Source: Tistrella mobilis KA081020-065
Lineage (GTDB): Bacteria; Pseudomonadota; Alphaproteobacteria; Tistrellales; Tistrellaceae
NCBI RefSeq assembly: GCF_000264455.2
Contig: NC_017958.1
Location: forward strand, 248,001 to 312,000
Reading direction: 5' to 3'
DNA length: 64,000 nt
Below, piece after piece: positions 23,400 through 58,184 of the stretch. The notes under the pieces were generated by a model. It had not been told where the DNA came from and did not search any database. It saw nothing but the letters and a program-made list of their open reading frames with translations. The translations under genes and the position numbers were made by a program. Within the stretch, counting starts at the first letter, position 1; each line of letters opens with the position of its first letter.

Positions 23400-23406
23400 T
23401 AAGGGG

Positions 23407-23838
<432 letters not shown>

Positions 23839-37302: not shown

Positions 37303-37446
37303 CCGGGCGGGACCACCGGTGGTATCGGCTGGTGGTCCTTTTACACCATATGAATGAAAAATATCACGAAACTATCTACCAAAAAGACAAAACACGTCCG
37401 TTCTGGCACGATGCACGTCGAGGTTCTGCCGTGGTGGACGATGTGA
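37303..37446. other. AT-rich leader before the DUF4365 cassette
   Basis: The sequence changes abruptly from GC-rich to A/T-rich just after the MarR gene (around 37335-37395). It probably carries the promoter of the three-gene cassette downstream. No clear -35/-10 pair could be fixed by eye. The change marks a likely acquisition boundary. Confidence 0.5.
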
Positions 37447-37947
37447 ATGAGCGACGCCCTGCTGTCATCGACGGATCGAGAAGAGGCTCTTTCTCGCGCT
37501 TATGTCTCAGCAATCGCCGCAGGTGCCGGATACACGGTAGCGGTCCAGGATTTCGATCGGGACGGCATCGACCTTCAGATCAAGGCTGGTGGCGCCATGC
37601 TCCCCTCCCTGGATCTTCAGCTCAAGGCGACGATTGACCTGCGCGAGGGGGCCGACGGCGACTTCCGCTACGCACTGCGCAAACGAAATTACGACCTGCT
37701 GCGTTGCCCAACCCTCGTCCCCCGCATCCTCCTTGTCCTGGCCCTGCCGGAAGATGAAGGAGACTGGCTGTCCGTGAGCGAAGAACAGCTTATACTTCGC
37801 AGATGCGCCTATTGGGTGAGCCTGAAGAATGCGACGGCCGTCGAAAATACGACAGCCGTGACGGTTACCATCCCTCGGACGAACCGTTTAGACGTCGGGG
37901 AATTGAAGCGTCTGATGGAGATGGCCAGGACCGGAGTCGTAGGATGA
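37447..37947 (+). CDS. DUF4365-type protein with nuclease-like residues
   Basis: The 166-residue protein opens with a helix ([19 protein letters not shown]), then FDRDGIDLQIKAGG and LDLQLKAT. A glutamate in the first helix, D42 in DGID and Q58-x-K60 in LQLK follow the PD-(D/E)xK nuclease pattern seen in DUF4365, a family common in genomic islands and defence loci. The end is LysArg-rich and not informative. It shares ATGA with the next gene, so the two are co-translated. Nuclease activity is inferred from the residue pattern only. Confidence 0.7.
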   Translation: MSDALLSSTDREEALSRAYVSAIAAGAGYTVAVQDFDRDGIDLQIKAGGAMLPSLDLQLKATIDLREGADGDFRYALRKRNYDLLRCPTLVPRILLVLALPEDEGDWLSVSEEQLILRRCAYWVSLKNATAVENTTAVTVTIPRTNRLDVGELKRLMEMARTGVVG

Positions 37948-39074
37948 AGGTGCAGATTCTCGACACCGAAGCTTTGAGAGCGATCTCCCCCCAGGCCCTC
38001 GCGGCCTATGTCCGTAGCGAAGGCTGGAGTCGTGCTGCGGCCTATGGTTTGCATGGCGACGTCTATACCGCCCCGGGCAGGCCGGACATCATCCTCCCCC
38101 GCAGCGAGCATCTGGCCGACTATGCGGGGCACATGACCCGTCTGATCCGCATCTTCTCGGAGATGACGGGCTATGACGATCTCACCACCTATCGCGAACT
38201 GTCGGAAGCCGACCGGGATGTCATACGTATCCGGTCGGTGGGGCTGAGCGAGGATGGAACACTTCCGCTCGATCGCGGCGTCCGGATGATCGAAAAAGCG
38301 CGGGATCTGGTACTGGCGGCCGCCTGTGCCACGCGCTCGCCGCAAGCTCTCTATCGTGCCGGCGCAAACCGCGAGGCCGCAGACTACATCAAGCGGGTCA
38401 AGCTGGGGCAGACCGAGCATGGCAGCTATGTCCTTACCTTGCTCGCACCGGTTCCACCCCGGCTGACACCCCCGCAACCGCTGCTCGACGAGACCTGGGA
38501 CACCCCCGAAGAAGAACCGGTCGAACGTCAGGTTACACAGCGATTGATGGCAGCCCTCATAGCGTCGCGATCCGCAGTTGAGCGTAGCACGCGCGGCGAT
38601 GCCGAAGCCTTTGAGCAGGCGATCGGCGACGGGGTGAGCGCCAATCTCTGTGAAGCGCTTGCAGGCCTCATCGACCAGTCGGAACGGTTGGACATCCGCC
38701 TGACCTGGGCACGGACCCGCCCCGTGCCTGAAATCCACCGAGATGTCAGCTTCTCAAAGACAGATGCAGGCGTCCTGTCCGAGGCTGCCCGGATCTTCAG
38801 GCTTCGTGCACCGGTGCCTGATGTAACTCTTCATGCCACTGTGCATCAACTGAAACGAGACCAGGACGATATCGACGGGGTGGTGACACTAAAGGCAGTC
38901 ATCGAGGACGCGCTACGGTCAGTCACCGTGGTTCTCGATCCGGCAAACTACCGGCTGGCGGTGCGGGCACATGAGAACCAGACGCCCATCGTCGTCACCG
39001 GGGACCTGGAACGAAGCGGTCAGCGTTGGCGGCTTATCAACCCCAAGGTGAAGGCAGTGAGCCCGGAAAAGTGA
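37944..39074 (+). CDS. Unknown 376-residue protein in the DUF4365 cassette
   Basis: I do not recognise this protein. It is soluble, acidic overall, and has no signal peptide or membrane segment. The N-terminal half is helical. The part from about residue 180 (EEEPVERQVTQRLMAALIASRSAVERS) may be a helical linker. The C-terminal 60 residues (VVTLKAVIEDALRSVTVVLD, then VVTGDLERSGQRWRLINP) read like a small beta-barrel, possibly OB-like. The ATG overlaps the stop of the DUF4365 gene (ATGA), and a toxin-binding-domain gene starts 13 bases after its stop. Codon use is somewhat less GC-biased than in nearby core genes. Confidence 0.65.
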   Translation: MKVQILDTEALRAISPQALAAYVRSEGWSRAAAYGLHGDVYTAPGRPDIILPRSEHLADYAGHMTRLIRIFSEMTGYDDLTTYRELSEADRDVIRIRSVGLSEDGTLPLDRGVRMIEKARDLVLAAACATRSPQALYRAGANREAADYIKRVKLGQTEHGSYVLTLLAPVPPRLTPPQPLLDETWDTPEEEPVERQVTQRLMAALIASRSAVERSTRGDAEAFEQAIGDGVSANLCEALAGLIDQSERLDIRLTWARTRPVPEIHRDVSFSKTDAGVLSEAARIFRLRAPVPDVTLHATVHQLKRDQDDIDGVVTLKAVIEDALRSVTVVLDPANYRLAVRAHENQTPIVVTGDLERSGQRWRLINPKVKAVSPEK

Positions 39075-39087
39075 ACGGAGCGCCCGA

Positions 39088-39303
39088 TTGGAACCAACCG
39101 CGCATGTCCGGATCCGGCACTCGGGCCGGATCCTTGCCCGGGCGGCCGAGGTCTTCGGCAGCCGCGAGGGGGCCGAACGCTGGCTTCAGACACCGTCCCC
39201 GGCACTTGACCGGCACCGGCCGATCGATCTGCTCAGGACCCGGCGCGGGCGAACACTGGTAGAGACCCTGCTCGTTCGGCTCGATTATGGGGTTTATGTC
39301 TGA
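39088..39303 (+). CDS. Stand-alone MbcA/ParS/Xre toxin-binding domain (DUF2384)
   Basis: The 71-residue product matches the C-terminal half of Xre/MbcA/ParS antitoxins: ARAAEVFGSREGAERWLQTP, PALDRHRPIDLLRT and a final VETLLVRLDYGVYV. In complete antitoxins this domain holds a RES-type toxin and follows a DNA-binding domain, which is missing here. The only usable start is TTG at 39088, with GGAG nine bases upstream; the frame is closed by a stop at 39058. No RES toxin gene lies nearby. It could be an antitoxin remnant or a true small partner of the two preceding proteins. Confidence 0.7.
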   Translation: MEPTAHVRIRHSGRILARAAEVFGSREGAERWLQTPSPALDRHRPIDLLRTRRGRTLVETLLVRLDYGVYV

Positions 39304-41246: not shown

Positions 41247-41266
41247 GTAGACTATTGTCTACTATT
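41247..41266 (+). promoter_or_regulatory. Operator palindrome TAGAC-N4-GTCTA, copy 1
   Basis: GTAGAC-TATT-GTCTACTATT lies 143 bases upstream of the PPDK-like gene. A near-identical 20-mer stands between the XRE-cupin regulator and the oxidoreductase operon (44133-44152). A TACAAT at 41270-41275 could be the -10, so the palindrome would cover the -35 region, as for a repressor. Confidence 0.7.
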
Positions 41267-41408
41267 ATGTACAATCATAAGGCGTGTGTTTATCTACCTA
41301 AAAGGGCTTTATGCAGGGGTTTAAGAACCGTGCGTGGAGACATGGCGCGAACCTCGGGCATGCACCTTGCTCTGTACAAAATCTGTCAACAGGCTGATCG
41401 AGGTCGTC

Positions 41409-43367
41409 ATGGCGACGCTGAGCAAATTTGATTTCAAGGAATTACTGACCGGAATAAGTACCCGTGCCCGGAGACCGGAGGACATCCTGTCCGGCATCCG
41501 CGCCGCCGATCTTGAAGGCGTCATCTTCCCGCGCTTTTCCGACGACGAGTACACGCCCTTCGCCTCGGGCGAGGCCATCCATGATGGCGATCATTCGGGC
41601 TATCTGGTGCTCCACCGGAGCACCGCACAGCAGATCTCCGACGGGGCCGGCGACAGTTCCGACGCGCCCGACTACATCTACTCGGTCGCCGAAGGGGACA
41701 TCGACGATTTCGCGGCGATCAAGGGCGCCGCGGGCTTTTTCACCAACCATCCGGGCAAGACCACATTCTCTCCGGTGCAATCCGTATCGGAGGGAAAGTC
41801 GACGATCATCGCCGCAAATATCGACTATCACGAAAGCGATGAGCCCGTTGACCTTCATTTCCAGACGAAGAGCGGCGGTTCCCGCATCGTCAGAACCAGA
41901 AAGCGCTGGATCTCGACGGTCGATATCGACGGTCGCGAAGCCCGGGTCTATGAAGGCGACATGGTGGCGATGTCGGGATCACGGGGCCTGGTCTTCGCGG
42001 GCGCACGTGTGGTCGCACCGTCCCGGATCGATACCCTCTACAACCTGCTGACCGACGCCTATCTGGCGGCCGAGACCGAATTCGGGCCGGCCTCTGCCTG
42101 GGAACGCCTCTCCGACACGGCGTTCTTTGCCGCCCATCGCGAAGAGATCCGGGAGATCGTCGCGTCGGATGAGTTCAGAGGCTTCCAGTCGCTCATCGGC
42201 TTCTGTCATGCCCAGTCGCCTTTGCGGGTCTATGTGAACGTTCACAAAACCGCCTGCGTGGTCCGGGCCCGGCTGCTCGCCTCGACGCTGACCTTCGACG
42301 GGACGGGCTTGTCGATCGATTGCAACGAGGCAGCACTGGGGGTCGGCCTGTTGCGTGACGAAAGGATGTGGATCGATCCGTCGGATATCGACATCCTGCG
42401 CATTCTGTTCCTGGGCGACGACTGCACGACCAAAGAGCATTACGATCGCATCGTCCGCCAGTACGAGCGCCGGCACGGGGACCGCTACTACTCGATCTTC
42501 TCCGCCCGGCCGGGCGCGATCTGCGTCGTCAGAACCCTTTGCATGCCGTTCAGCAAGTTCCTGCCCGACAATTTCGACATTGCGGATTTTGCGGCGCGGC
42601 ACGGTCTCGATCCTGCCAAGACGCAAAGCGCCTTTCGCCGGCTGAGCGGAGAGCGGGAGGTCTATCACGGATGCCGCGGCATCCGCCTGTTCTCGATCCG
42701 CCCGGATCTGGCGCGTCTGTGGCTGCGGACCGTGCTGGGTGCGCTGGCGCGCGCAAATGCCGACGGCGCAGCGGTGAAGGTCCGGTTCCTCCTCGCCACG
42801 CTCACGCTTCCCGACGAGGCATCCCGCTTCATCGTGACGCTCGAAGAGGTCGCGTCTTCGATCTTCGGAAGCGTGAAGGCCGCCCCGATCGAAGGTGCGA
42901 CGACCATGCTGGAGACCGGTGGCGCCTTCATCTGCCTGGAAAGCATCCTGAGGCAACGCGGCCACGAGCTGGGGATGGTCGGCGGCCTGATCGGGTCGAA
43001 CGACTTCACGACCGCCTGCCTCAACATGAATCGCAGTGATGCGCCGCGCCACCTGATCCCCGGCTATGTCGAACAGGGCTTTTTTGCATCCAGCCCGTTC
43101 ACCCATGTCCAGGTGTCGGTGGTGGGACGGGCGATGCATGAAGCGCTGCAGCGCTCCACCCGCCTTGCCCTGGAGCTGGACCAGCAGTTCATCTGGGGGC
43201 TTGCGGGCGAGTTGACCACCGACTGGCATTCCGTCCAGTGGCTGGCGCGGTTCCTCGCCCCGGCCGGCCTGACCTATCTGTCGACCAGCCCTGAAACCAT
43301 CATCGCAGCACTGCTCGCCTCTGCCGCAACCCGGTATCAGCGGCCGGAGGTCAGTCGCGCCGCCTGA
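41409..43367 (+). CDS. PPDK-like pseudoenzyme (swivel and PEP-binding domains only)
   Basis: The 652-residue protein aligns by eye with the C-terminal two thirds of pyruvate phosphate dikinase. Residues about 50-185 match the swivelling domain (GAAGFFTNHPGKTTFS against GILTARGGMTSHA; VDIDGREARVYEGD against the closing ITIDGSTGEVY). About 300-640 matches the PEP-binding barrel (VGLLRDERMW, YHGCRGIRL, GATTMLETGGAF, IGSNDFTT). Metal and PEP residues E502, N531-D532, R375 and R423 appear kept. The phospho-carrying histidine is Phe120 and the catalytic cysteine is Ala599 (GLAGELTTDWHSV against GICGEHGGDPSSV). The ATP-grasp domain is absent. It is therefore probably not a dikinase. It is the first gene after operator copy 1. 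Confidence 0.72.
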   Translation: MATLSKFDFKELLTGISTRARRPEDILSGIRAADLEGVIFPRFSDDEYTPFASGEAIHDGDHSGYLVLHRSTAQQISDGAGDSSDAPDYIYSVAEGDIDDFAAIKGAAGFFTNHPGKTTFSPVQSVSEGKSTIIAANIDYHESDEPVDLHFQTKSGGSRIVRTRKRWISTVDIDGREARVYEGDMVAMSGSRGLVFAGARVVAPSRIDTLYNLLTDAYLAAETEFGPASAWERLSDTAFFAAHREEIREIVASDEFRGFQSLIGFCHAQSPLRVYVNVHKTACVVRARLLASTLTFDGTGLSIDCNEAALGVGLLRDERMWIDPSDIDILRILFLGDDCTTKEHYDRIVRQYERRHGDRYYSIFSARPGAICVVRTLCMPFSKFLPDNFDIADFAARHGLDPAKTQSAFRRLSGEREVYHGCRGIRLFSIRPDLARLWLRTVLGALARANADGAAVKVRFLLATLTLPDEASRFIVTLEEVASSIFGSVKAAPIEGATTMLETGGAFICLESILRQRGHELGMVGGLIGSNDFTTACLNMNRSDAPRHLIPGYVEQGFFASSPFTHVQVSVVGRAMHEALQRSTRLALELDQQFIWGLAGELTTDWHSVQWLARFLAPAGLTYLSTSPETIIAALLASAATRYQRPEVSRAA

Positions 43368-43383
43368 ACGCAGCGCAGCGGCT

Positions 43384-43421
43384 CAGGTCCCGGTCAGGCG
43401 ATTTCAGCTGATCGGGACCTG
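43384..43421. terminator. Hairpin between convergent genes
   Basis: CAGGTCCCG (43384-43392) pairs with CGGGACCTG (43413-43421), with further pairing inside (TCAG/CTGA). It separates the PPDK-like gene from the XRE-cupin gene on the opposite strand. No T-run is present. Confidence 0.55.
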
Positions 43422-43458
43422 TTCCCGCGTCCGGTGCCGACGCGGCATCTTTGGCCGG

Positions 43459-44040
43459 TCAGGTGATCGACTTGACGTATTTCGTGCCATCGATCACGAG
43501 AAGCCAGGAAACCGCTTCCGTCGTGTCGTTGACCATTTCATGGGTGCAATCGGCATCGAAGAAAAGACTATCGCCTGTTTTCATAGTGATCTTCCGGTCG
43601 TTCAGGTGGACGCTCAATTGGCCCGCCAGAACGAAGATGTATTCGTGAATGCCTTTCTTATGCGGCGAAAAGGGGCCCGTGCGCCCGCCGGGCCCGAGTT
43701 CATTATGGACGACGTCAACCCCACGCCCTGGAAAAATGGGCGAAAGAGCACGGCGGACGAAGCCACGTGCGCTGTCGTGAAGGACAGGCTGCGCATCGGC
43801 GGGCAGATATATGATGCTGCTTACGTCGTCTTTGCTCAGCAGGTCTGAAATTCCGACTTCGAGGGCTTCGGCAAGCTTGCCGAGCGTCGTGGCCGAAACC
43901 CCGCCGTCACCACGCTCGATCTTCGAAATCATCGCCTTGCTGACCGAGGATGCCGCGGCGAGCGCCGACATCGACAGCCCGCGCAACTGACGGATTGCCC
44001 TGAGGTTTTTACCAATATCTTCAGCCGATTGCTGTGCCAT
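43459..44040 (-). CDS. XRE-cupin transcriptional regulator
   Basis: The 193-residue protein has an N-terminal XRE helix-turn-helix (IGKNLRAIRQLRGLSMSALAAASSVSKAMISKIERGDGG in pieces over residues 9-47) and a C-terminal cupin (about 120-185: KKGIHEYIFVLAGQLSVHLND, GDSLFFDADCTHEMVN). Such regulators sense small metabolites through the cupin. The ATG at 44040 is chosen; open frame upstream is unlike the family and would cover the operator. The gene is divergent from the oxidoreductase operon and convergent with the PPDK-like gene, and both those units carry the same palindrome. Confidence 0.88.
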   Translation of the reverse strand: MAQQSAEDIGKNLRAIRQLRGLSMSALAAASSVSKAMISKIERGDGGVSATTLGKLAEALEVGISDLLSKDDVSSIIYLPADAQPVLHDSARGFVRRALSPIFPGRGVDVVHNELGPGGRTGPFSPHKKGIHEYIFVLAGQLSVHLNDRKITMKTGDSLFFDADCTHEMVNDTTEAVSWLLVIDGTKYVKSIT

Positions 44041-44132
44041 CGCCTCTCCGCTGCGCCGCCTGCGCCTCTGCATGCCGGAACCGTGTCGCAACTCTACCAA
44101 AATTCCGCCGGCCCTCCCGACCTGACGAATCG

Positions 44133-44152
44133 GTAGACATATGTCTACTATT
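44133..44152 (+). promoter_or_regulatory. Operator palindrome TAGAC-N4-GTCTA, copy 2
   Basis: GTAGAC-ATAT-GTCTACTATT lies 38 bases upstream of the Tat-signal gene and 92 bases upstream of the divergent XRE-cupin gene. It differs from copy 1 in three central bases only. It should serve as the operator of the XRE-cupin protein for both directions. This assignment is inferred. Confidence 0.72.
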
Positions 44153-44190
44153 CTAATACGGTTCAACCATTGAGGGATTGGAGGTGGGCG

Positions 44191-44955
44191 ATGTTGCCAG
44201 ATGAACCGCAAGGCCTCAGCCGGAGATCATTGCTGACCGGCGCCGGCGCGCTTGGTGTGGGCGTGGGTGTGGTTGCAGCAGCGCCGGACGCCATCCTTGT
44301 CCGGCAGGCCGGCGCCGAAGAAGGCAGCCCCCCGGCAACGGCGCCGGGACAGGCTGCACAGCCCGACGCCGTCGCCGGATATCAGAGTCTCGGCATCGAA
44401 GAGGCCGCGATCGTGGAAGCGCTGGTCGCCCATATGTGGCCGGCCGACGATCTGTCGCCGGATGGTGTTGCCTTGGGCATCGCCGTCTTCATCGATCGCC
44501 AGCTGGCGGGCGCCTATGGCCAGGGTGATCGCCTGTATCTGAGCGGCCCGTTCAGGCAGGGCAAACCGGAACACGGCTACCAGCTTGCCTGCACCCCCGA
44601 AGCCTACCTGAAGGCCGGGTTGCGTCATCTTGCGGAGATATCCGACCGGCGCTACGCCGCGCCCCCGGATCGCCTGACGCCGGATCAACTGGAGGCGCTT
44701 CTCCACGACATATCCGAGACGCCGCCCGAGCCCGCCGCTTTCGATCTGAAGGCGTGGTTCAACGAGCTGTTCTACCCGCTCTTCGTTCGGGGCGCCTTCG
44801 CCGATCCGATCTATGGCGGAAACCGCGACAAGCAGGCCTGGCGGATGATCGGCTATCCTGGCCTGCCGGCCACCTACACCACCGACATGGTGACATGGCG
44901 CGGCCGCCGGCATCCGGCATCGGACACGCCCATGTCGATTCAGGATTTCTCCTGA
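44191..44955 (+). CDS. Gluconate 2-dehydrogenase subunit 3-like protein with Tat signal
   Basis: The 254-residue protein begins with a twin-arginine signal (LSRRSLLTGAGALGVGVGVV, residues 9-28) followed by a Thr/Ala/Pro linker. The mature part matches the small subunit of FAD gluconate dehydrogenases (EEAAIVEALVAHMWPADDLSPDGV, then YGGNRDKQAWRMIGYPG). This subunit escorts the folded flavoprotein through the Tat system and assists electron transfer. GGAGG lies six bases before the ATG. It opens an operon with the GMC flavoprotein and a c-type cytochrome. Confidence 0.88.
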   Translation: MLPDEPQGLSRRSLLTGAGALGVGVGVVAAAPDAILVRQAGAEEGSPPATAPGQAAQPDAVAGYQSLGIEEAAIVEALVAHMWPADDLSPDGVALGIAVFIDRQLAGAYGQGDRLYLSGPFRQGKPEHGYQLACTPEAYLKAGLRHLAEISDRRYAAPPDRLTPDQLEALLHDISETPPEPAAFDLKAWFNELFYPLFVRGAFADPIYGGNRDKQAWRMIGYPGLPATYTTDMVTWRGRRHPASDTPMSIQDFS

Positions 44956-45015
44956 GACCGGGAGCGCCGTTCAGGCGCCCGGGCCCACCCCCGAAATGGT
45001 TTCAGCGAGGCAGCA

Positions 45016-46779
45016 ATGGCGACGCGACTGCCTGAGAAAGAGATCGTGGTGATCGGCGGCGGCCTGACGGCGGGTCTGGTTGCCCGCAGGCTGGTGCCGG
45101 CCGGTCGAGAGGTGCTCGTCCTGGAACGCGGCCCGGACTGGTCGGGGTCGGCGGTCGGAGAGCTGCCGCATCAGCGGGACGAGTTGCGCTGGTCGACCTA
45201 TCGCGGCATGACCCGCCGCGAAAACGTCGAGACCTACACCCTGCGCCACAGCCCGGACGAGGAGGCGCTGCCGATGCGGCAGGTGCTGTCCTTCCTGCCC
45301 GGCTTCGGCGTGGGCGGGGCCGCGCAGCACTGGAACGGCCAGACCTGGCGCTTTTCCGAGTCCGATTATGTCCTGAGACAGCATCTGACGGAGCGCTATG
45401 GCGCAAAATCCATTCCGGATGGGATGACGATCCAGGATTGGGGGCTCACCTACCGCGATCTCCAGCCCTATTACGAGGAATTCGAAGCGCTTTTCGGCAT
45501 TGCCGGCAAGGCGGGCAATCTGAAGGGCGTCAGGCAGGCGGGCGGCAATCCCTTCGAACCCTGGCGCGCCACGGAATATCCGCTTCCCCCGCTGGAGATG
45601 TCGGAAGCCTCGCAGATCTTCAAGGACGCGACCGGGCAGCTGGGCTATGAGGCGTTTCCGCTGCCGGCTGCCAATGCCAGCCGCCCATACCGGAACCCGG
45701 ACGGGATGCAGCTGGGGCAATGCCAGTATTGCGGCCATTGCGAACGCTTCACCTGCGAAGCGAACGCGAAGGCCACGCCGGCCTCTCTGCTCTTCCCGCT
45801 CGTCCGGTCCCGCCCGAATTTTGAGCTGCGCGCCGGTGCGGAGGTCATTCGTCTCAACACGACCGCCGACGGAATGCGCCTTGAGAGCGTGAGCTATGTC
45901 GACGTGGCGACGGGACAGGAATTCATCCAGCCCGGCGCGCTCTTCGTTCTGTGCAGCTACACGCTGAGCAATGTCCGCCTGCTTCTTCTGTCGAAGATCG
46001 GCACGCCCTATGATCCGGCCACCCGCACCGGTACGGTCGGGAAGAATTATTGTTATCAGGTGACATCCGGCCTGAACATGTTCTTCCCGGACAGATACAT
46101 AAACCCCTTCATGGGGGCCGGGGCGCTGGGTTTCGTCATCGACGACTTCAACAACGACAATTTCGATCACACCGGCCTGGGGTTCCATGGCGGCGGATAC
46201 ATCTCCGCAACCCAGACGAACGGCCGCCCGATCGATACGAGACGCCTGCCGCCCGGCACGCCCCGCTGGGGATCGGCTTGGAAGAAGGCGAATGCCGACT
46301 GGTATCTGCGGTCCATGAGCATTTCGCTGCACGGCTCCAACTACGCCAATGCCCGGAATTACATGGATCTGGACCCGGATTACAAAGATCAATGGGGCCG
46401 GCCGCTTCTGCGGATCACCTTCGATTTCGACGAGAACGATGCGCGGATGTGCCGGTTCGCCAATGGCAGGATGGAAGAGATTGCCGCCGCAGCCGGTGCG
46501 AAGATCATCAGCAAGCCGAACGTCCGCAAGAGCCCCTACGATACCCGCCAGTATCAGTCGACGCACAACACCGGCGGCACGATCATGGGTGCAGACCCCA
46601 CCTCTTCCGTCGTCTCGCCTCATCTTCAGAGCTGGGATGTGGAGAACCTGTTCATCTCGGGGGCGAGCGTGTTCCCGCAGAATTCGGGCTACAACCCGAC
46701 CGGACCCGTGGGCGCGCTCGGCCTGAGACTGGCCGGGGATCTTCTGTCATATCTGTCTGATCCGAGGCGGCTCGGATGA
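45016..46779 (+). CDS. GMC oxidoreductase (gluconate 2-dehydrogenase large-subunit type)
   Basis: The FAD-containing catalytic subunit, 587 residues. The dinucleotide-binding start is VVIGGGLTAGLVARRLV; ASVFPQNSGYNPTGPVGALGLRLA is the C-terminal GMC motif. The active-site pair is probably H517 (STHNTGGT) and N560 (GYNPTG). A cysteine cluster CQYCGHCERFTC, about residues 236-247, resembles the Fe-S ligand region reported for fructose- and glucose-dehydrogenase large subunits. It has no own signal, as expected if it rides with the Tat subunit. The substrate (sugar acid, keto acid or other alcohol) cannot be named. Confidence 0.88.
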   Translation: MATRLPEKEIVVIGGGLTAGLVARRLVPAGREVLVLERGPDWSGSAVGELPHQRDELRWSTYRGMTRRENVETYTLRHSPDEEALPMRQVLSFLPGFGVGGAAQHWNGQTWRFSESDYVLRQHLTERYGAKSIPDGMTIQDWGLTYRDLQPYYEEFEALFGIAGKAGNLKGVRQAGGNPFEPWRATEYPLPPLEMSEASQIFKDATGQLGYEAFPLPAANASRPYRNPDGMQLGQCQYCGHCERFTCEANAKATPASLLFPLVRSRPNFELRAGAEVIRLNTTADGMRLESVSYVDVATGQEFIQPGALFVLCSYTLSNVRLLLLSKIGTPYDPATRTGTVGKNYCYQVTSGLNMFFPDRYINPFMGAGALGFVIDDFNNDNFDHTGLGFHGGGYISATQTNGRPIDTRRLPPGTPRWGSAWKKANADWYLRSMSISLHGSNYANARNYMDLDPDYKDQWGRPLLRITFDFDENDARMCRFANGRMEEIAAAAGAKIISKPNVRKSPYDTRQYQSTHNTGGTIMGADPTSSVVSPHLQSWDVENLFISGASVFPQNSGYNPTGPVGALGLRLAGDLLSYLSDPRRLG

Positions 46780-47147
46780 AGATGATCGGCAGGGTCGTCC
46801 TGGGTCTGGTGTCGGTTCTGGCCGCCACTGCCCCCACCAGGGCCGATCCGGAACGGGGGCAGACGCTCTTCGCCGCATGCGCCGCCTGTCATGAGACGGG
46901 CCCCGCCAGCAGCCGGCGGGCCCCGAGCCTGAAGGGCATCATCGGGCGACCCGCCGGAAGCCTGGCTGATTTCCGGTACAGCCGGGCAATGAGCCAGAGC
47001 GGAATTGTCTGGACCGACGAGACGATTCGCAAATTCATTCAGTCGCCTCAAGGCTTTATCCCGGGAAACAGGATGCCGTTCTCCGGAATACCATCCGAAG
47101 CCGACAGGGCGGATATCGTCGATTACCTGAAGAGTATTTCAGGCTAG
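46776..47147 (+). CDS. Periplasmic c-type cytochrome
   Basis: The 123-residue protein has a Sec signal peptide ending near TRADPE and one haem site CAACH (35-39). The sixth ligand is probably M100 in PGNRMPFSG. The fold is a class I monohaem cytochrome. It starts inside the stop of the GMC gene (ATGA overlap) and presumably takes electrons from the flavoprotein to the respiratory chain. Confidence 0.92.
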   Translation: MKMIGRVVLGLVSVLAATAPTRADPERGQTLFAACAACHETGPASSRRAPSLKGIIGRPAGSLADFRYSRAMSQSGIVWTDETIRKFIQSPQGFIPGNRMPFSGIPSEADRADIVDYLKSISG

Positions 47148-47208
47148 AGCAGGCCCCGCTCAGGTGGGATCTACAGGCATCGTTGTTGGTGGCACAGGAG
47201 ACTCCGGC

Positions 47209-48135
47209 ATGCGTATCCTCATCCTTGGAGCCGGCGGAATCGGCGGCTATTTCGGCGGCCGGCTGGCCTCGTCCGGGGTCGACGTTCAGTTCCTGGTCAG
47301 GCCGTCGCGCGCGGAGGTTCTGGCGCGGAACGGGCTGGTGATCAAAAGCCCTCTGGGCGACCTCCGGATGCCCGTCAAAACGATGACGGCGGCGACGGAG
47401 CCGGTCGATGCGGTGCTGCTGGCCTGCAAGGCCTATGACCTGACCGAGGCGATGGAGGCGGTGGCACCGGCCACCGGCCCCTCGACCCTGATCCTGCCGC
47501 TTCTGAACGGTATCCGCCAACTTGATCTGCTCGATGCCCGCTTCGGCCGGAAACACGTGCTGGGCGGGCTATGCCACATTGGTGCGATGGTGAACCCGGC
47601 CGGCGAGATCCTGCATCTCAACACGCTGCAGCGCTTCGTCTTCGGCCCCCGGATGCCAGACCAGACGGATGCGGCGGAGCGGCTGTTCACGGCGGTAAGG
47701 CCCGGCGGCTTCGAGCCGGTGCTGAGCCCCGCCATCACGCAGGAGATGTGGGAGAAGTTCACCTTCCTCGCCACCTATGCCGGCATGACGACCCTGATGC
47801 GTGCGCCGATCGGCGCCATCATGGCCGCGCAGGACGGCGAGGCGATCATGCGCGAGATGCTGGACGAGTGCCTGGCGACGGCAGCCGCCGGCGGTCACCG
47901 CCCGCGCGAAGAGGCCATGACGCAGATGATTTCGTCCCTGACCGAGCGCGGTTCGGCGGGCACGGCGTCGATGTTCCGCGACATGGCGCGCAACGGCCGG
48001 ACAGAACACGAGCACGTGATCGGCGACATGCTCGCACGCGCCAGGACAGCCGGCGTGCCGGCGCCGCTGCTCCGCCTCAGCCTTGCGAATATGCAGGCCT
48101 ACGAGGCGCAGCGTTCCGCCACGGCCGCCGGATGA
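47209..48135 (+). CDS. 2-dehydropantoate 2-reductase-like protein
   Basis: The 308-residue protein has the NADPH Rossmann start MRILILGAGGIGGYFGGRLA, ACKAYDL, LPLLNGIRQ and EMWEKFTFLATYAG, as in the ketopantoate reductase (PanE/ApbA) family. Many paralogues of this family act on other 2-keto acids. Here the place directly after a periplasmic dehydrogenase suggests a catabolic keto acid substrate, not pantothenate synthesis; this is inference. AGGAG precedes the ATG at 47209, and the stop shares ATGA with the exporter gene. Confidence 0.85.
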   Translation: MRILILGAGGIGGYFGGRLASSGVDVQFLVRPSRAEVLARNGLVIKSPLGDLRMPVKTMTAATEPVDAVLLACKAYDLTEAMEAVAPATGPSTLILPLLNGIRQLDLLDARFGRKHVLGGLCHIGAMVNPAGEILHLNTLQRFVFGPRMPDQTDAAERLFTAVRPGGFEPVLSPAITQEMWEKFTFLATYAGMTTLMRAPIGAIMAAQDGEAIMREMLDECLATAAAGGHRPREEAMTQMISSLTERGSAGTASMFRDMARNGRTEHEHVIGDMLARARTAGVPAPLLRLSLANMQAYEAQRSATAAG

Positions 48136-48998
48136 TGCCGGCACGTCCAACCGCCTGGCTCAACGGTCTGGTCGGCGTGGTGATCTTCAGCGGCTCCCTG
48201 CCCGCCACGCGCCTGGCGCTTCAGGGGTTCGATCCGCTGTTCCTGACCTATGCGCGGGCCACGATCGCCGCCATGGCGGGCGCCGTCGCACTTGTCCTGC
48301 TGAAACAGACGCGGCCGCAGAGGGAGGAAATCCCCGGTCTGGTCCTGGTCGCGGCCGGCGTGGTCATCGGCTTTCCGCTGCTGACCGCCCTGGCGCTCGA
48401 GCACATCACCGCGGCGCGCGGCCTGCTCTATATCGCCCTCTTGCCGGTGATGACGGCGCTTTTCGCGGTGATCCGTGCGGGCGAGAGGCCACGTCCGCCC
48501 TTCTGGCTGTTCTCGCTTGCCGCCAGCCTGCTGGTCATGGCCTTCGCCGCATCGACCGGGCGCGTCGCCGGCACGCTGCCGGGGGATCTCATGATGCTCG
48601 CGGCCATCGTCCTCTGCGGGCTCGGCTATGCGGAAGGCGGCCGCCTCTCGCGGCGGCTCGGCGGCTGGCAGGTCATCAGCTGGGCTCTTCTGATGACGCT
48701 GCCGGTGATGCTGCCTCTGGCACTCTACGCCTGGCCGGAAGATCCGACGACGGTCGCCCCTCCGGCGGTTCTGGCGCTGTTTTATGTCGGCCTGTTCAGC
48801 ATGCTGATCGGGTTCATCTTCTGGTATCGCGGCCTCGCCCAGGGCGGCATCGCCAGCGTCGGGCAGCTGCAATTCCTTCAGCCCTTTCTGGGCCTGGCTC
48901 TGGCCGCGGCAATCCTCGGCGAGCCGATCGGCTGGTCTCTTCTGGTCGTCATGATCCTGGTGATCAGCTGCGTCGCCGCCGCACGGCGTTTCGCCTGA
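48132..48998 (+). CDS. DMT-superfamily (EamA) transporter
   Basis: The 288-residue protein has ten membrane segments in two EamA repeats, with PATRLALQGFDPLFLTYARATIAA in the first and FWYRGLAQGGIASVGQLQFLQP in the second, both common in this family. It is translationally coupled to the ketopantoate-reductase-like gene. It probably moves a metabolite of the same pathway. The substrate is unknown. Confidence 0.85.
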   Translation: MMPARPTAWLNGLVGVVIFSGSLPATRLALQGFDPLFLTYARATIAAMAGAVALVLLKQTRPQREEIPGLVLVAAGVVIGFPLLTALALEHITAARGLLYIALLPVMTALFAVIRAGERPRPPFWLFSLAASLLVMAFAASTGRVAGTLPGDLMMLAAIVLCGLGYAEGGRLSRRLGGWQVISWALLMTLPVMLPLALYAWPEDPTTVAPPAVLALFYVGLFSMLIGFIFWYRGLAQGGIASVGQLQFLQPFLGLALAAAILGEPIGWSLLVVMILVISCVAAARRFA

Positions 48999-55294: not shown

Positions 55295-55724
55295 GGTGGC
55301 GATTTCCGAAGGCAGCGGTGGGGGGAAAGAAGCGACGACGACAGCAGAACGCGACCCGCACCAGCCACCCGGAGTGGCTGGTGCAAGCCGCCATTGAGGC
55401 GGCGGCCAAGGGGGCGGCAGCCCCCGCCCGGCGAGGGACTAACAAACCTCCGCCATTGAGGCGGCGGCCAAGGCCACGGTAGTGGCCGCCCGGCGAGAGC
55501 CAAACAGACTCCCGCTCCCGCACGCCCCCCGTGCGGGAGCAAGCCGCCATTGAGGCGGCGGCCAAGGCCACGGTAGTGGCCGCCCGGCGAGAGCCGGGCA
55601 GACTCCCGCTCCCGCACGCCCCCCGTGCGGGAGCAAGCCGCCATTGAGGCGGCGGCCAAGGCCACGGTAGTGGCCGCCCGGCGAGGGACTGACAGACTCG
55701 CCCGCCCGGCGAGGGACTAACAGC
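55295..55724. repeat. Cluster of structured intergenic repeats, copies B-E
   Basis: Four copies lie between two minus-strand genes. B spans about 55358-55443, C 55449-55507, D 55514-55607 and E 55608-55695. C, D and E recur at exactly 94 bases. D and E begin with an 11-5-11 hairpin GCTCCCGCACG-CCCCC-CGTGCGGGAGC; B begins with GCACCAGCCAC-CCGGA-GTGGCTGGTGC. Each continues with the conserved GCCGCCATTGAGGCGGC block and a second hairpin: GGGGGC-GGCA-GCCCCC in B, GGCCAC-GGTA-GTGGCC in C-E. A last partial unit (CGCCCGGCGAGGGACTAAC) ends at the amidotransferase stop. There is no gene in this stretch. Confidence 0.9.
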
Positions 55725-56426
55725 CTACGCGTCGAGATTGCGCAGCCAGGTCTCGAGGCAGGCTTCGGCGCGCGGCTTCAGGATCGGGCCCCAGTGCTCG
55801 TTGTCGGCGCGCAGCCGCGGCACGTCGACGCCGGCGGCGCCAAGCTCGATGGTGTGGCCGATCAGCCAGCGCTCGAAGCCCTCGCCGCCCGCTTCCGGGT
55901 GGAACTGGGCACCGAAGGCATTGGCACCATAAGAGAAGGCCTGCACCGGGCAGATTTCCGTGGAGGCGAGCGCCTCCGCCCCCTCGGGCAGGTCGAAGCG
56001 ATCCCCGTGCCAGTGCAGCACCGGCCCGCCCTCAAACACGTTCAGGCAGGACCGGCGGCCGGCGTCAGTCAGCGTCAGCTCCGAAAAGCCGATTTCCTTG
56101 GCAGGGCCCGGATAGACTTTCGCCCCCAGCACCCGCGCCATCAGCTGCGCGCCAAGGCAGACGCCGAAGATCGGCTTGCCACTGGCCAGGCGCCGCTCGA
56201 TCAGCTGCAGCTCTTCGGTGAGGAAGGGATATTTCTCCTCCTCATAGGCACCGATCGGCCCGCCGAGCACCACGATCAGCCCGGTGGTCAGGGGATCCAG
56301 GGTCCAGAGCTCGTCCACACCGGCATCGTAGTAGTGGACCTTGTAGCCGGCGCGTTCCAGGACCGGCCCGAAGCAGCCCAGATCCTCGAAGGCGAGGTGG
56401 CGAATGGCGACGGCGGTCTTCAGCAT
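55725..56426 (-). CDS. Class I glutamine amidotransferase-like protein
   Basis: The 233-residue protein has the amidotransferase nucleophile elbow GVCLGAQLMARVLG, FSYGANAFGAQFHPEA with the catalytic His, and a downstream glutamate in HPEAGGEGFE. GMP-synthase-like stand-alone proteins of this kind hydrolyse glutamine or gamma-glutamyl compounds. It is divergent from a MocR-type regulator across a 228-base region with a strong palindrome, so it is probably its target. Confidence 0.85.
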   Translation of the reverse strand: MLKTAVAIRHLAFEDLGCFGPVLERAGYKVHYYDAGVDELWTLDPLTTGLIVVLGGPIGAYEEEKYPFLTEELQLIERRLASGKPIFGVCLGAQLMARVLGAKVYPGPAKEIGFSELTLTDAGRRSCLNVFEGGPVLHWHGDRFDLPEGAEALASTEICPVQAFSYGANAFGAQFHPEAGGEGFERWLIGHTIELGAAGVDVPRLRADNEHWGPILKPRAEACLETWLRNLDA

Positions 56427-56445
56427 CGTTGCCTCCGATTAATGA

Positions 56446-56473
56446 CACATGCCAATATCTCATTTGGCATGTG
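56446..56473. promoter_or_regulatory. Palindrome in the amidotransferase / MocR divergent region
   Basis: CACATGCCAA (56446-56455) and TTGGCATGTG (56464-56473) are exact complements around an eight-base AT-rich centre. The site lies 19 bases upstream of the amidotransferase ATG. It is the natural binding site for the divergent MocR-type regulator. Confidence 0.65.
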
Positions 56474-56654
56474 CCGATATATCTAGCCTCTTCCTCGCCG
56501 CACTGCAACCACGACGTTCGCCCGAAATGCACGACCCGGGCAGCCTGGTTCCGCCTGCCGCGACACGCCACACCTGCCGGCCCTCTCCCCGCGTCCCTGT
56601 CGCGGCAGTCGGGACCGGCTCGCCGATTGCCCCCGAAAGCGGATGACGCCATAA

Positions 56655-58028
56655 ATGTCCGAGACACTCGGTCCGATCCGGACCCATGCCCCACTCACCG
56701 GAGTCCCTCACCCGATGCATTTCGTCACCGGCAGATCGGCGGCAGAGATCGCCGCCAGCGTCGAGCGGGCGATCCGCAGCGGCCAGGTCTCCCCCGGCGA
56801 GCAGCTGCCCTCGGTGCGCGACGTGGCCGAACGGCTGGGCGTCAATCGCAACACCGTGACTGCCGCGTACGCCCGTCTGCGTGAAGCCGGTCTCGTCACC
56901 GGAAACGGCCGCCAGGGCTCCCGCGTGGCCGCGCCGCCCTCGGTCGAGATTTACCGCAGCGAGATACCGGCCGATGTCCGCGACCTCGCCTCGGGCAATG
57001 TCGACGCGTCGCTGCTGCCCGATCTCGCCCCCTTCCTCGCCCGGCTCGACCTGCCGCCCGGTGGCTACGAGATGGTGGAGGACGATCCCGAACTGGTCGC
57101 CCATGCCCAGCGGGTGTTCCGCGCCGATGGTCTGCAGGCCGGCCGCATCGCCATCGTCTCGGGCGCCATGGACGGGCTGGAACGGGCATTGCGCGCCCAT
57201 CTGCGGCCGGGAGATCCGATCGCGATCGAGGATCCGGGCTATGTCTCGGCCCTGCTGCTGGTGCGTTCCCTGGGCCTCAGGCCCGTGCCGATGGCCCTGG
57301 ACGAAGACGGCGTGCTGCCCGAAGCGCTGGATGCCGCCCTCGCCGCCGGGGTGCGCGCGGTGGTAACCACCCCCCGCGCCCAGAACCCGACCGGCGCCTG
57401 TCTCGGCGCCGAACGGGCCGCCAGGCTGCGCGCCCTGCTCGACCGCCATCCCGAGGTGCTGGTGATCGAGGATGATCACGCGAGCGCCGTCTCGGGCGTG
57501 CCGGCCCAGACCCTCGCCCCCGCCCGCATGGCCGCCCGCCCCTGGACGGTGATCCGCTCGGTGTCGAAATTCCTGGGCCCGGATCTGCGCCTTGCCATCG
57601 TCGCCGGCGACCCGATGACCATCGCCCGCATGCAGGATCAGCAGGCGCTGGGCCCGCGCTGGGTGAGCCATATCATCCAGCGCCTGGTGCTCAGGCTGTG
57701 GACAGCCCCCGGTACCGACCAGGTGATCGAGCGGGCCGCCCGTTCCTATGGGGCCCGGCGCGAGGCCCTGGCCGCAAGGCTGGCCGATCACGGCGTCATC
57801 GCCCTCGGCCGATCGGGCCTGCATGTCTGGGTGCCCGTCCAGCGCGAAGCCGAGGTCGTCCAGGGCATGCTCGCCCGCGGCTGGTCCATCCAGGCCGGGG
57901 AAATCTTCCGCCTGCGCAGCGGCCCCGGCGTGCGTGTCGGCATCGCCGGCCTCCATCCGGGCGAAGAGGACACCGTCGCCCGGGCCCTGGCCGACAGCAT
58001 GCGGCCGGGGCGGTTGCTGTATACGTAG
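56655..58028 (+). CDS. MocR-type regulator (GntR domain fused to aminotransferase)
   Basis: The 457-residue protein has a GntR winged helix (about 25-95: IRSGQVSPGEQLPSVRDVAERLGVNRNTVTAAYARL in pieces) and an aminotransferase-like PLP domain. The PLP lysine is in RSVSKFLGPDLRLA, and TTPRAQNPTGACLG is the usual NPTG motif. MocR proteins control vitamin B6, GABA or amino acid genes and use PLP as effector. The ATG at 56655 or the one at residue 21 (MHFVTGRS) may be the start. It is divergent from the glutamine amidotransferase-like gene, which suggests a PLP- or glutamine-related pathway. Confidence 0.9.
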   Translation: MSETLGPIRTHAPLTGVPHPMHFVTGRSAAEIAASVERAIRSGQVSPGEQLPSVRDVAERLGVNRNTVTAAYARLREAGLVTGNGRQGSRVAAPPSVEIYRSEIPADVRDLASGNVDASLLPDLAPFLARLDLPPGGYEMVEDDPELVAHAQRVFRADGLQAGRIAIVSGAMDGLERALRAHLRPGDPIAIEDPGYVSALLLVRSLGLRPVPMALDEDGVLPEALDAALAAGVRAVVTTPRAQNPTGACLGAERAARLRALLDRHPEVLVIEDDHASAVSGVPAQTLAPARMAARPWTVIRSVSKFLGPDLRLAIVAGDPMTIARMQDQQALGPRWVSHIIQRLVLRLWTAPGTDQVIERAARSYGARREALAARLADHGVIALGRSGLHVWVPVQREAEVVQGMLARGWSIQAGEIFRLRSGPGVRVGIAGLHPGEEDTVARALADSMRPGRLLYT

Positions 58029-58047
58029 AGGGAGGGAGAGGTTGTTT

Positions 58048-58184
58048 TAGCCCCTCGCCGGGCGGCCACTCCCGTGGCCTTGGCCGCCGCCGAGTCTGTT
58101 AGCCCCTCGCCGGGCGGGCGCTGCCGCGCCCTTGGCCGCCGCCGCAATGGCGGCTTGCACCAGCCATCTAAGATGGCTGGTGCA
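58048..58184 (-). repeat. Structured intergenic repeats, copies F and G (inverted)
   Basis: F (58048-58093) is partial, with hairpin GGCCAC-TCCC-GTGGCC. G (58100-58184) is complete: CGCCCGGCGAGGGGCTAA on the minus strand, hairpin GGGCGC-TGCC-GCGCCC, the GCCGCC block and an 11-5-11 hairpin GCACCAGCCAT-CTAAG-ATGGCTGGTGC. They lie between the convergent MocR and cupin genes. Confidence 0.85.

Follow-up and report, generated by a model that had tools for sequence, protein, structure and literature searches.

A PPDK-like gene without an ATP-grasp domain

The window analysed here is a stretch of 64,000 nucleotides from Tistrella mobilis KA081020-065 (NC_017958.1, positions 248,001 to 312,000 of the forward strand), and its own numbering is used throughout. 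On its forward strand, at 41409..43367, lies a gene for a 652-residue protein related to pyruvate phosphate dikinase (PPDK), with an ATG at 41409, a stop codon ending at 43367 and, by eye, a GAGG resembling a ribosome-binding site before the ATG. Beside it are a gene for an XRE-cupin regulator and an oxidoreductase operon. A first-pass annotation had compared the protein with the swivelling and phosphoenolpyruvate (PEP)-binding domains of PPDK, had noted that the ATP-grasp domain was missing and had proposed a pseudoenzyme under XRE-cupin control.

The likeness to PPDK was borne out by profile searches. The Pfam model PEP-utilizers_C matched residues 306–634 (E=9.3e-13, 48.4 bits against a cut-off of 22.8), and the top NCBIfam model was TIGR01828, pyru_phos_dikin (E=2.6e-30), but at 105 bits against an equivalog cut-off of 843. 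Models for PEP synthase and enzyme I gave no match at E<=1 in the NCBIfam scan, and all 11 Protein Data Bank (PDB) matches below 1e-10 were PPDKs, the best at 2.4e-17. The second Pfam family expected, PEP-utilizers, was not found at E<=1; the swivelling domain was instead detected with hhalign, which aligned the first 205 residues with the central domains of PPDK (probability 97%, E=9.5e-11). Likewise, PPDK_N, the ATP-grasp family, gave no Pfam match at E<=1, and the alignment with PPDK spans from directly after the ATP-grasp domain to the C-terminus, with 21–25% identity to 18 PPDK pieces. The swivelling domain, which holds the phospho-histidine in PPDK, was placed at residues 44–201 (41538..42011, + strand) from hhalign and the fold match described below, and the PEP/pyruvate-binding barrel at residues of about 258–640 (42180..43328, + strand) from PEP-utilizers_C and fold comparison. 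Judged by these alignments, the protein is a PPDK descendant without the kinase half. An ordinary PPDK with both catalytic residues is also encoded in the genome, at C4:944595, about 650 kb away. Scans with PADLOC and PHROGs returned nothing for the PPDK-like protein.

Predicted structure

An AlphaFold2 model of the protein reached a predicted local distance difference test score (pLDDT) of 84.2 and a predicted template modelling score (pTM) of 0.86 with a 23-row alignment. Five of the rows were pieces of family members, and the other 18 were PPDK pieces taken from viral contigs, where 20 loci were available and L042 and L043 were excluded. A model built earlier on six sequences was discarded for its low pLDDT of 54.7. 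The 17 best chains returned by Foldseek were all PPDKs. Using VIA-align, model residues 1–643 were overlaid on residues 336–874 of 5jvj_B with a Z of 34.6 over 520 residues at 2.9 Å, a match that starts past the ATP-grasp domain, in agreement with its absence. The carrier domain solved by nuclear magnetic resonance (2fm4) matched model residues 44–201 with a Z of 14.2 over 126 residues.

The fit was close (2.9–4.2 Å) for 5jvj, 5jvl, 1vbg, 1vbh and 2r82 and loose (8.8–11.4 Å) for 1kbl, 1dik, 5lu4 and 2x0s. The modelled pose resembles the former set, and may come from the PPDK rows, which form 18 of the 23 in the alignment. The published report on 5jvl, a member of that set, describes the catalytic histidine near bound PEP (PMC5371819). 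A β-hairpin inserted at residues 139–171 is absent in PPDK, and the linker is about 48 residues longer than in PPDK. The barrels of malyl-CoA lyase, CLYBL, malate synthase and CitE-type lyase gave Z values of 14.2–15.6 against the model, equalled by pyruvate kinases (14.2–14.7) and exceeded by PEP synthase and enzyme I (23–25). Identification as a lyase by fold ranking alone was rejected because pyruvate kinases score alike.

Catalytic and substrate-binding residues

In the PPDK mechanism a histidine carries the phosphate and a cysteine protonates the enolate. The phospho-histidine column is occupied by Phe120 (codon 41766..41768, + strand) in a MAFFT L-INS-i alignment with four PPDKs, in a larger MAFFT alignment, where 15 of the 18 PPDK rows reach the site, and in hhalign. 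The catalytic cysteine column is occupied by Ala599 (43203..43205, + strand) in phmmer against maize PPDK and in both MAFFT alignments. Both replacements, as first proposed by eye, are thus upheld, and substitutes at shifted positions were not found: the nearest histidine, H114, is Asn in the Lautropia relative introduced below, and no cysteine lies within 20 residues of A599. Phe and Ala recur in every relative that covers the respective site.

A third replacement, unmentioned in the first-pass annotation, was seen in the alignment and in a residue comparison with Lautropia: the Asp that is invariant in PPDK three residues past R375 is Cys378 (42540..42542, + strand). We take this position to be D620 in the numbering of the C. 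symbiosum enzyme, to which R617 and C831 also belong; a literature search returned no paper giving these PPDK residue numbers and roles. Residues R375, R423, E502, N531 and D532, listed earlier as kept, are indeed conserved in the alignment with PPDK, as is R316; the codons from E502 to N531–D532, metal and substrate ligands, span 42912..43004 on the + strand. Presumably R316, R375, E502, N531 and D532, with the D620 equivalent, form the PEP/Mg site. A new metal site built from conserved cysteines and histidines was rejected: Lautropia has the same residue at 5 of 9 Cys positions and at 5 of 18 His positions, which is not above overall identity. With no ATP-binding domain, no phosphate-carrying histidine and no enolate-protonating cysteine, PPDK-type phosphotransfer is not possible.

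Relatives, conservation and selection

Both genus mates carry a relative (98% and 95% identity), and the frames are open in all three genus genomes. In a metagenome-assembled genome (MAG) labelled Nitratireductor the relative is in two pieces (81% and 90% identity) with a frame break near residue 439, which is either real or an assembly error, on a 35-kb contig that may be mis-binned. The Lautropia dentalis relative (L004 4509–9137) is interrupted by an IS66-like element, named by eye, which separates an N-terminal piece of 33% identity from a C-terminal one of 54%. Genome G1028 holds a 116-residue fragment of 54–55% identity, and only 172 bases lie between the start of this fragment and the end of its contig. 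The two replaced sites are covered by three lineages (Tistrella, the Nitratireductor MAG and Lautropia), plus one fragment, and the MAG and Lautropia relatives keep both Phe and Ala. One Lautropia piece appears twice in the four-PPDK alignment, under L004 and under L016, which denote a single locus.

The family is rare. In genome sets that overlap, matches were present in 3 of 3 genomes of the order (1e-40), 3 of 385 of the class (the same three; 1e-30) and 1 of 398 of the phylum set (itself; 1e-25). Around Lautropia, matches were present in 2 of 300 genomes of its order, 1 of 293 of its class (1e-21) and 2 of 74 in its family, one an ordinary PPDK; the families of G1028 and of the Nitratireductor MAG gave 1 of 61 and 1 of 199, respectively. 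A peptide-pattern scan of GTDB contigs, which requires exact eight-residue words of the protein, yielded 2 loci. No members were found in viral contigs, E. coli or phages (one phage record, 23% identity). Candidates rejected as ordinary PPDKs with His and Cys were the Embleya and Nonomuraea plasmid matches, which had at first resembled relatives lacking ATP-grasp (91–92% query cover; the other 19 of the 21 plasmid records had 49–53% cover and 23–29% identity) and G1603, which had passed the 1e-21 limit. The PPDK of G1603 (L024) stands near a frame that looks by eye like the DHDPS family, which is reminiscent of the DHDPS-family gene next to the Lautropia relative (see below).

Ratios of nonsynonymous to synonymous substitution rates (dN/dS) came to 0.139 and 0.082 for the two genus mates; for the two MAG pieces they were 0.082 and 0.044. 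Those against Lautropia are unreliable, with dS of 1.8 and 3.0. Since dN/dS is 0.04–0.14 within Tistrella and against the MAG, the gene is under purifying selection and is not decayed.

To locate the conservation, identity to Lautropia was counted by segment. Segments holding pocket residues were 67–85% identical (371–384, 11/14; 416–428, 11/13; 496–510, 11/15; 526–545, 17/20; 595–612, 12/18), compared with 23–48% in eight segments over residues 1–300, some of which include a few stray letters of the second Lautropia piece. Other barrel segments ranged from 33% (511–525) to 63% (301–330, 19/30) and 70% (613–652, 23/33), and the contrast between pocket and remainder is partly one of domains. 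Furthermore, 194 positions are near-invariant in PPDK, with one residue in at least 94% of the rows and 12 or more rows covering the site. Among the three lineages, 62 of these are unchanged, at 68 (including residue 1) the family shares a different residue, and 64 vary. We read this pattern as a relined pocket rather than decay. The former histidine loop has the form FT..P.[KR]T.F..VQSV.EGK.T.I in common with Lautropia, and YHE.DE in the inserted hairpin is shared by the same two proteins.

A shared palindrome and the neighbouring genes

The XRE-cupin gene (HTH_3 and Cupin_2 in Pfam; 43459..44040, − strand, start at 44040) is convergent with the PPDK-like gene and divergent from the oxidoreductase operon, which it borders as had been claimed. 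The operon, on the + strand, encodes a Gluconate_2-dh3 subunit with a twin-arginine-like start (44191..44955), a GMC oxidoreductase (45016..46779), a cytochrome c (46776..47147), a PanE/ApbA-type reductase of the 2-dehydropantoate 2-reductase family (47164..48135) and an EamA-type transporter (48132..48998, start chosen by eye). These were assigned by domain scans; for the GMC protein, placed by Pfam, a PDB search gave the fructose dehydrogenase large subunit as the nearest solved relative (6.8e-32).

The palindrome GTAGACnnnnGTCTAC occurs at exactly two places in the whole 6.5-Mb genome: before the PPDK-like gene as GTAGACTATTGTCTAC (41247..41262), overlapping a weak sigma-70-like match at 41248–41275, and between the regulator and the operon as GTAGACATATGTCTAC (44133..44148). 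Of 100 shuffles of the window, none held any copy. The sister genome G001 has exactly the same two places, and in G002 an exact copy on the operon side is paired with a one-mismatch copy on the PPDK-like side; in the Nitratireductor MAG (locus L003) the exact copy is on the PPDK-like side and the one-mismatch copy on the operon side. Between the constant arms, the central tetranucleotide is ATAT in the operon copies and TATT, TATC or TCTC in those before the PPDK-like gene. The palindrome is absent at the ordinary PPDK of the same genome and, allowing up to two mismatches, from the Lautropia and G1028 stretches scanned.

Because the palindrome is shared by both transcription units, common control of the PPDK-like gene and the oxidoreductase operon is likely. 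A study of Pseudomonas XRE-cupin regulators describes local repressors of helix-turn-helix plus cupin architecture that have palindromic sites, generally act on one or two targets adjacent to the regulator gene, and are exchanged together with those targets (PMC7901475). The arrangement here is alike, with both palindrome places local, and the regulator is predicted to be a repressor. We infer that it binds both palindromes from its position and from the published regulators of the class (PMC7901475); of the XRE-cupin control first proposed, common control is thus what the palindrome pair itself supports. A PPDK-like gene with a GMC operon was not found as an XRE-cupin target pair in the PMC literature searched.

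The block 41366–48998 is collinear with locus L003 of the Nitratireductor MAG at 76% DNA identity. There the block genes have a GC content at third codon positions (GC3) of 0.55–0.71 (a further pick, at 0.76, falls on the strand opposite a block gene). Upstream, 5 of 8 open reading frame picks are at 0.81–0.88 and the others at 0.70–0.77, and the downstream pick is at 0.83. Upstream of the module are genes for DUF3363 (with Relaxase below cut-off), Peptidase_S26 and DUF2840, and a cytosine methylase gene is also among its neighbours (L003 742–7247). The surroundings of the module in the MAG suggest an integrative conjugative element.

The survey of neighbours thus found the same block in the MAG but different neighbours in Lautropia, where a DHDPS-family gene (TIGR00674, 227 bits vs 206) ends 9 nt before the relative begins. 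GC3 is 0.67 for that gene and 0.58 and 0.60 for the relative, with neighbours at 0.81–0.89; the one other DHDPS-family match in the Lautropia genome is 27% identical to the gene beside the relative. The DHDPS-family neighbour in Lautropia and the GMC dehydrogenase with a PanE-type reductase in Tistrella and the MAG point to keto-acid metabolism.

The gene at 37803–39074 was considered as a partner and rejected, 37338–39128 having no match at the same locus of either sister genome. It matches the PADLOC phage-defence candidate PDC-M02B (1e-136) and looks strain-specific. Elsewhere in the window, a class A RNase P RNA lies at 23404–23837 (− strand), in contig C4 (1.13 Mb), one of the five contigs of the genome; C4 would be indispensable if it is a separate replicon and the sole holder of RNase P RNA. 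Stretches of about 50–60 bases are repeated across 55386–58155, with a GGCCAC-arm palindrome at 55472, 55566 and 55660 (94-base spacing) and at 58064; Rfam gave no match in this region.

Discussion

By the sequence evidence, the PPDK-like protein is a functional offshoot of PPDK that is incapable of two-step phosphotransfer, and has probably taken on a new function that involves a keto acid. With a probability of roughly 0.6, we propose that it acts, without phosphotransfer, on a PEP-like ligand or keto acid as part of this co-regulated module. Within this proposal, catalysis on the keto acid is put forward tentatively, and binding or sensing of it would be rather less expected.

The catalytic form of the proposal is speculative, and possible in the following terms. 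The barrel, which holds Mg2+ with PEP or pyruvate in PPDK, is retained but relined, and would still hold a keto acid or PEP with Mg2+. The swivelling domain, with Phe120 in place of the histidine, would close over it as a mobile lid. The likeliest specific role would be to bind a 2-keto acid with Mg2+ and to carry out a non-phosphotransfer enolate reaction on it (aldol/lyase, decarboxylation or tautomerisation), in which the Mg2+ barrel with its new pocket residues would make or break a C–C bond or decarboxylate the substrate. The second transcription unit encodes a three-part GMC dehydrogenase, probably periplasmic, with the PanE-type reductase and the EamA transporter, and the XRE-cupin repressor, travelling with the PPDK-like gene, would switch both units of this small, horizontally mobile module through the shared palindrome. 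CitE-type lyases, malyl-CoA lyase, CLYBL and malate synthase offer a comparison, as they have a barrel of the same superfamily and handle enolates without phosphotransfer. The acidic residues E502 and D532 are kept here. The PPDK-like protein differs in having the swivelling domain, no sequence-level membership in these lyase families was found, and the barrel similarity is matched by pyruvate kinases.

Several points weigh against the proposal. Members are few, and every copy seen outside the genus is broken or cut. Neither the palindrome nor the GMC operon accompanies the Lautropia relative, so that the partners are not the same in all lineages. With both the cysteine and the D620 equivalent gone, the case for a plain pyruvate-enolate mechanism is weaker. 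The reversed palindrome sequence, used as a control, occurs at 1, 1, 2, 1 and 1 places in genomes G000, G001, G002, G745 and G744, so single chance copies of such a sequence are to be expected and the weight rests on the pairing; the promoter-like match at the first copy is weak, two being found in the region where shuffles give 0.8. Moreover, conservation is also high beyond the pocket (613–652 and 301–330), and since the conserved regions are not confined to the pocket and are the same as in PPDKs, the pattern is silent on catalysis versus binding.

One rival, a ligand-binding pseudoenzyme, would bind PEP or a keto acid and pass on a signal by contact, or hold a metabolite, with no chemistry. 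It shares the ligand with our proposal and differs in lacking catalysis. The equivalents of the histidine, cysteine and D620 are all replaced while R316, R375, E502, N531 and D532 are kept, as such a protein would have it, and co-regulation with a metabolic operon is in its favour. However, the neighbouring cupin regulator already has a sensing domain, the Lautropia relative lies directly behind an aldolase-family gene, and many PPDK-invariant positions are now new shared residues, beyond what simple loss of function needs. As these positions hold another residue common to three lineages, the relining fits new chemistry as well as binding; of the earlier claim, descent from PPDK and replacement of both phosphotransfer residues stand, while inactivity is not established. 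We regard the pseudoenzyme as an unlikely but serious alternative to catalysis on the ligand.

It is improbable that the protein is a partner subunit that regulates or scaffolds a full-length PPDK, such as the one at C4:944595, or another enzyme. The PPDK fold is intact end to end after the ATP domain, and separate PPDKs exist in the same genome and in the Nitratireductor MAG, but the Lautropia genome has no other match to the PPDK-like query at E<=1e-5, and the PPDK of T. mobilis is distant and without the palindrome. Still less probable is one half of a split dikinase that takes its ATP-grasp domain from another gene. Relatives of this kind exist: HpeHI, CreHI and PpsAB (phenylphosphate synthase) have the ATP-grasp half on a separate polypeptide, as would be the case here (PMC12167813). 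They use the conserved histidine and require the ATP-grasp partner, and the other domain of HpeH resembles the rifampin-binding domain of RPH (PMC12167813), whereas here the phospho-histidine is Phe and no PPDK_N occurs among the neighbouring proteins, to which the scan was confined. A decayed PPDK gene without function is the most implausible of all, for although copies outside the genus carry a frameshift, are interrupted by the IS66-like element or run into the end of a contig, dN/dS is low, the frames are open in three genus genomes and the replacements are shared with a relative only 33–54% identical. Taken together, phosphotransfer in any form and decay are improbable.

The swivelling and PEP-binding domains of the protein are folded and ordered as in PPDK itself (TIGR01828; 1kbl, 1vbg, 5jvj), but the protein lacks the ATP-grasp domain and has Phe120, Ala599 and Cys378 where PPDK has His, Cys and Asp. 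Loss of a domain with a new role is also described for the PPDK-derived histidine kinase VadK (Rv1127c); its loss is the mirror image, as it keeps the ATP-binding and histidine domains without the pyruvate/PEP domain (PMC13400623). We recognised no PPDK relative with both residues replaced in the PMC literature searched, most subscription papers being outside it. The protein represents a PPDK lineage without the ATP half, the histidine and the cysteine, in which the pocket is kept and relined under selection. The case would also caution against the label PPDK for such genes. The choice between a new enzyme and a binding protein is directly testable with one protein and a two-promoter module, and the lineage suggests that the PPDK scaffold is separable from phosphotransfer.

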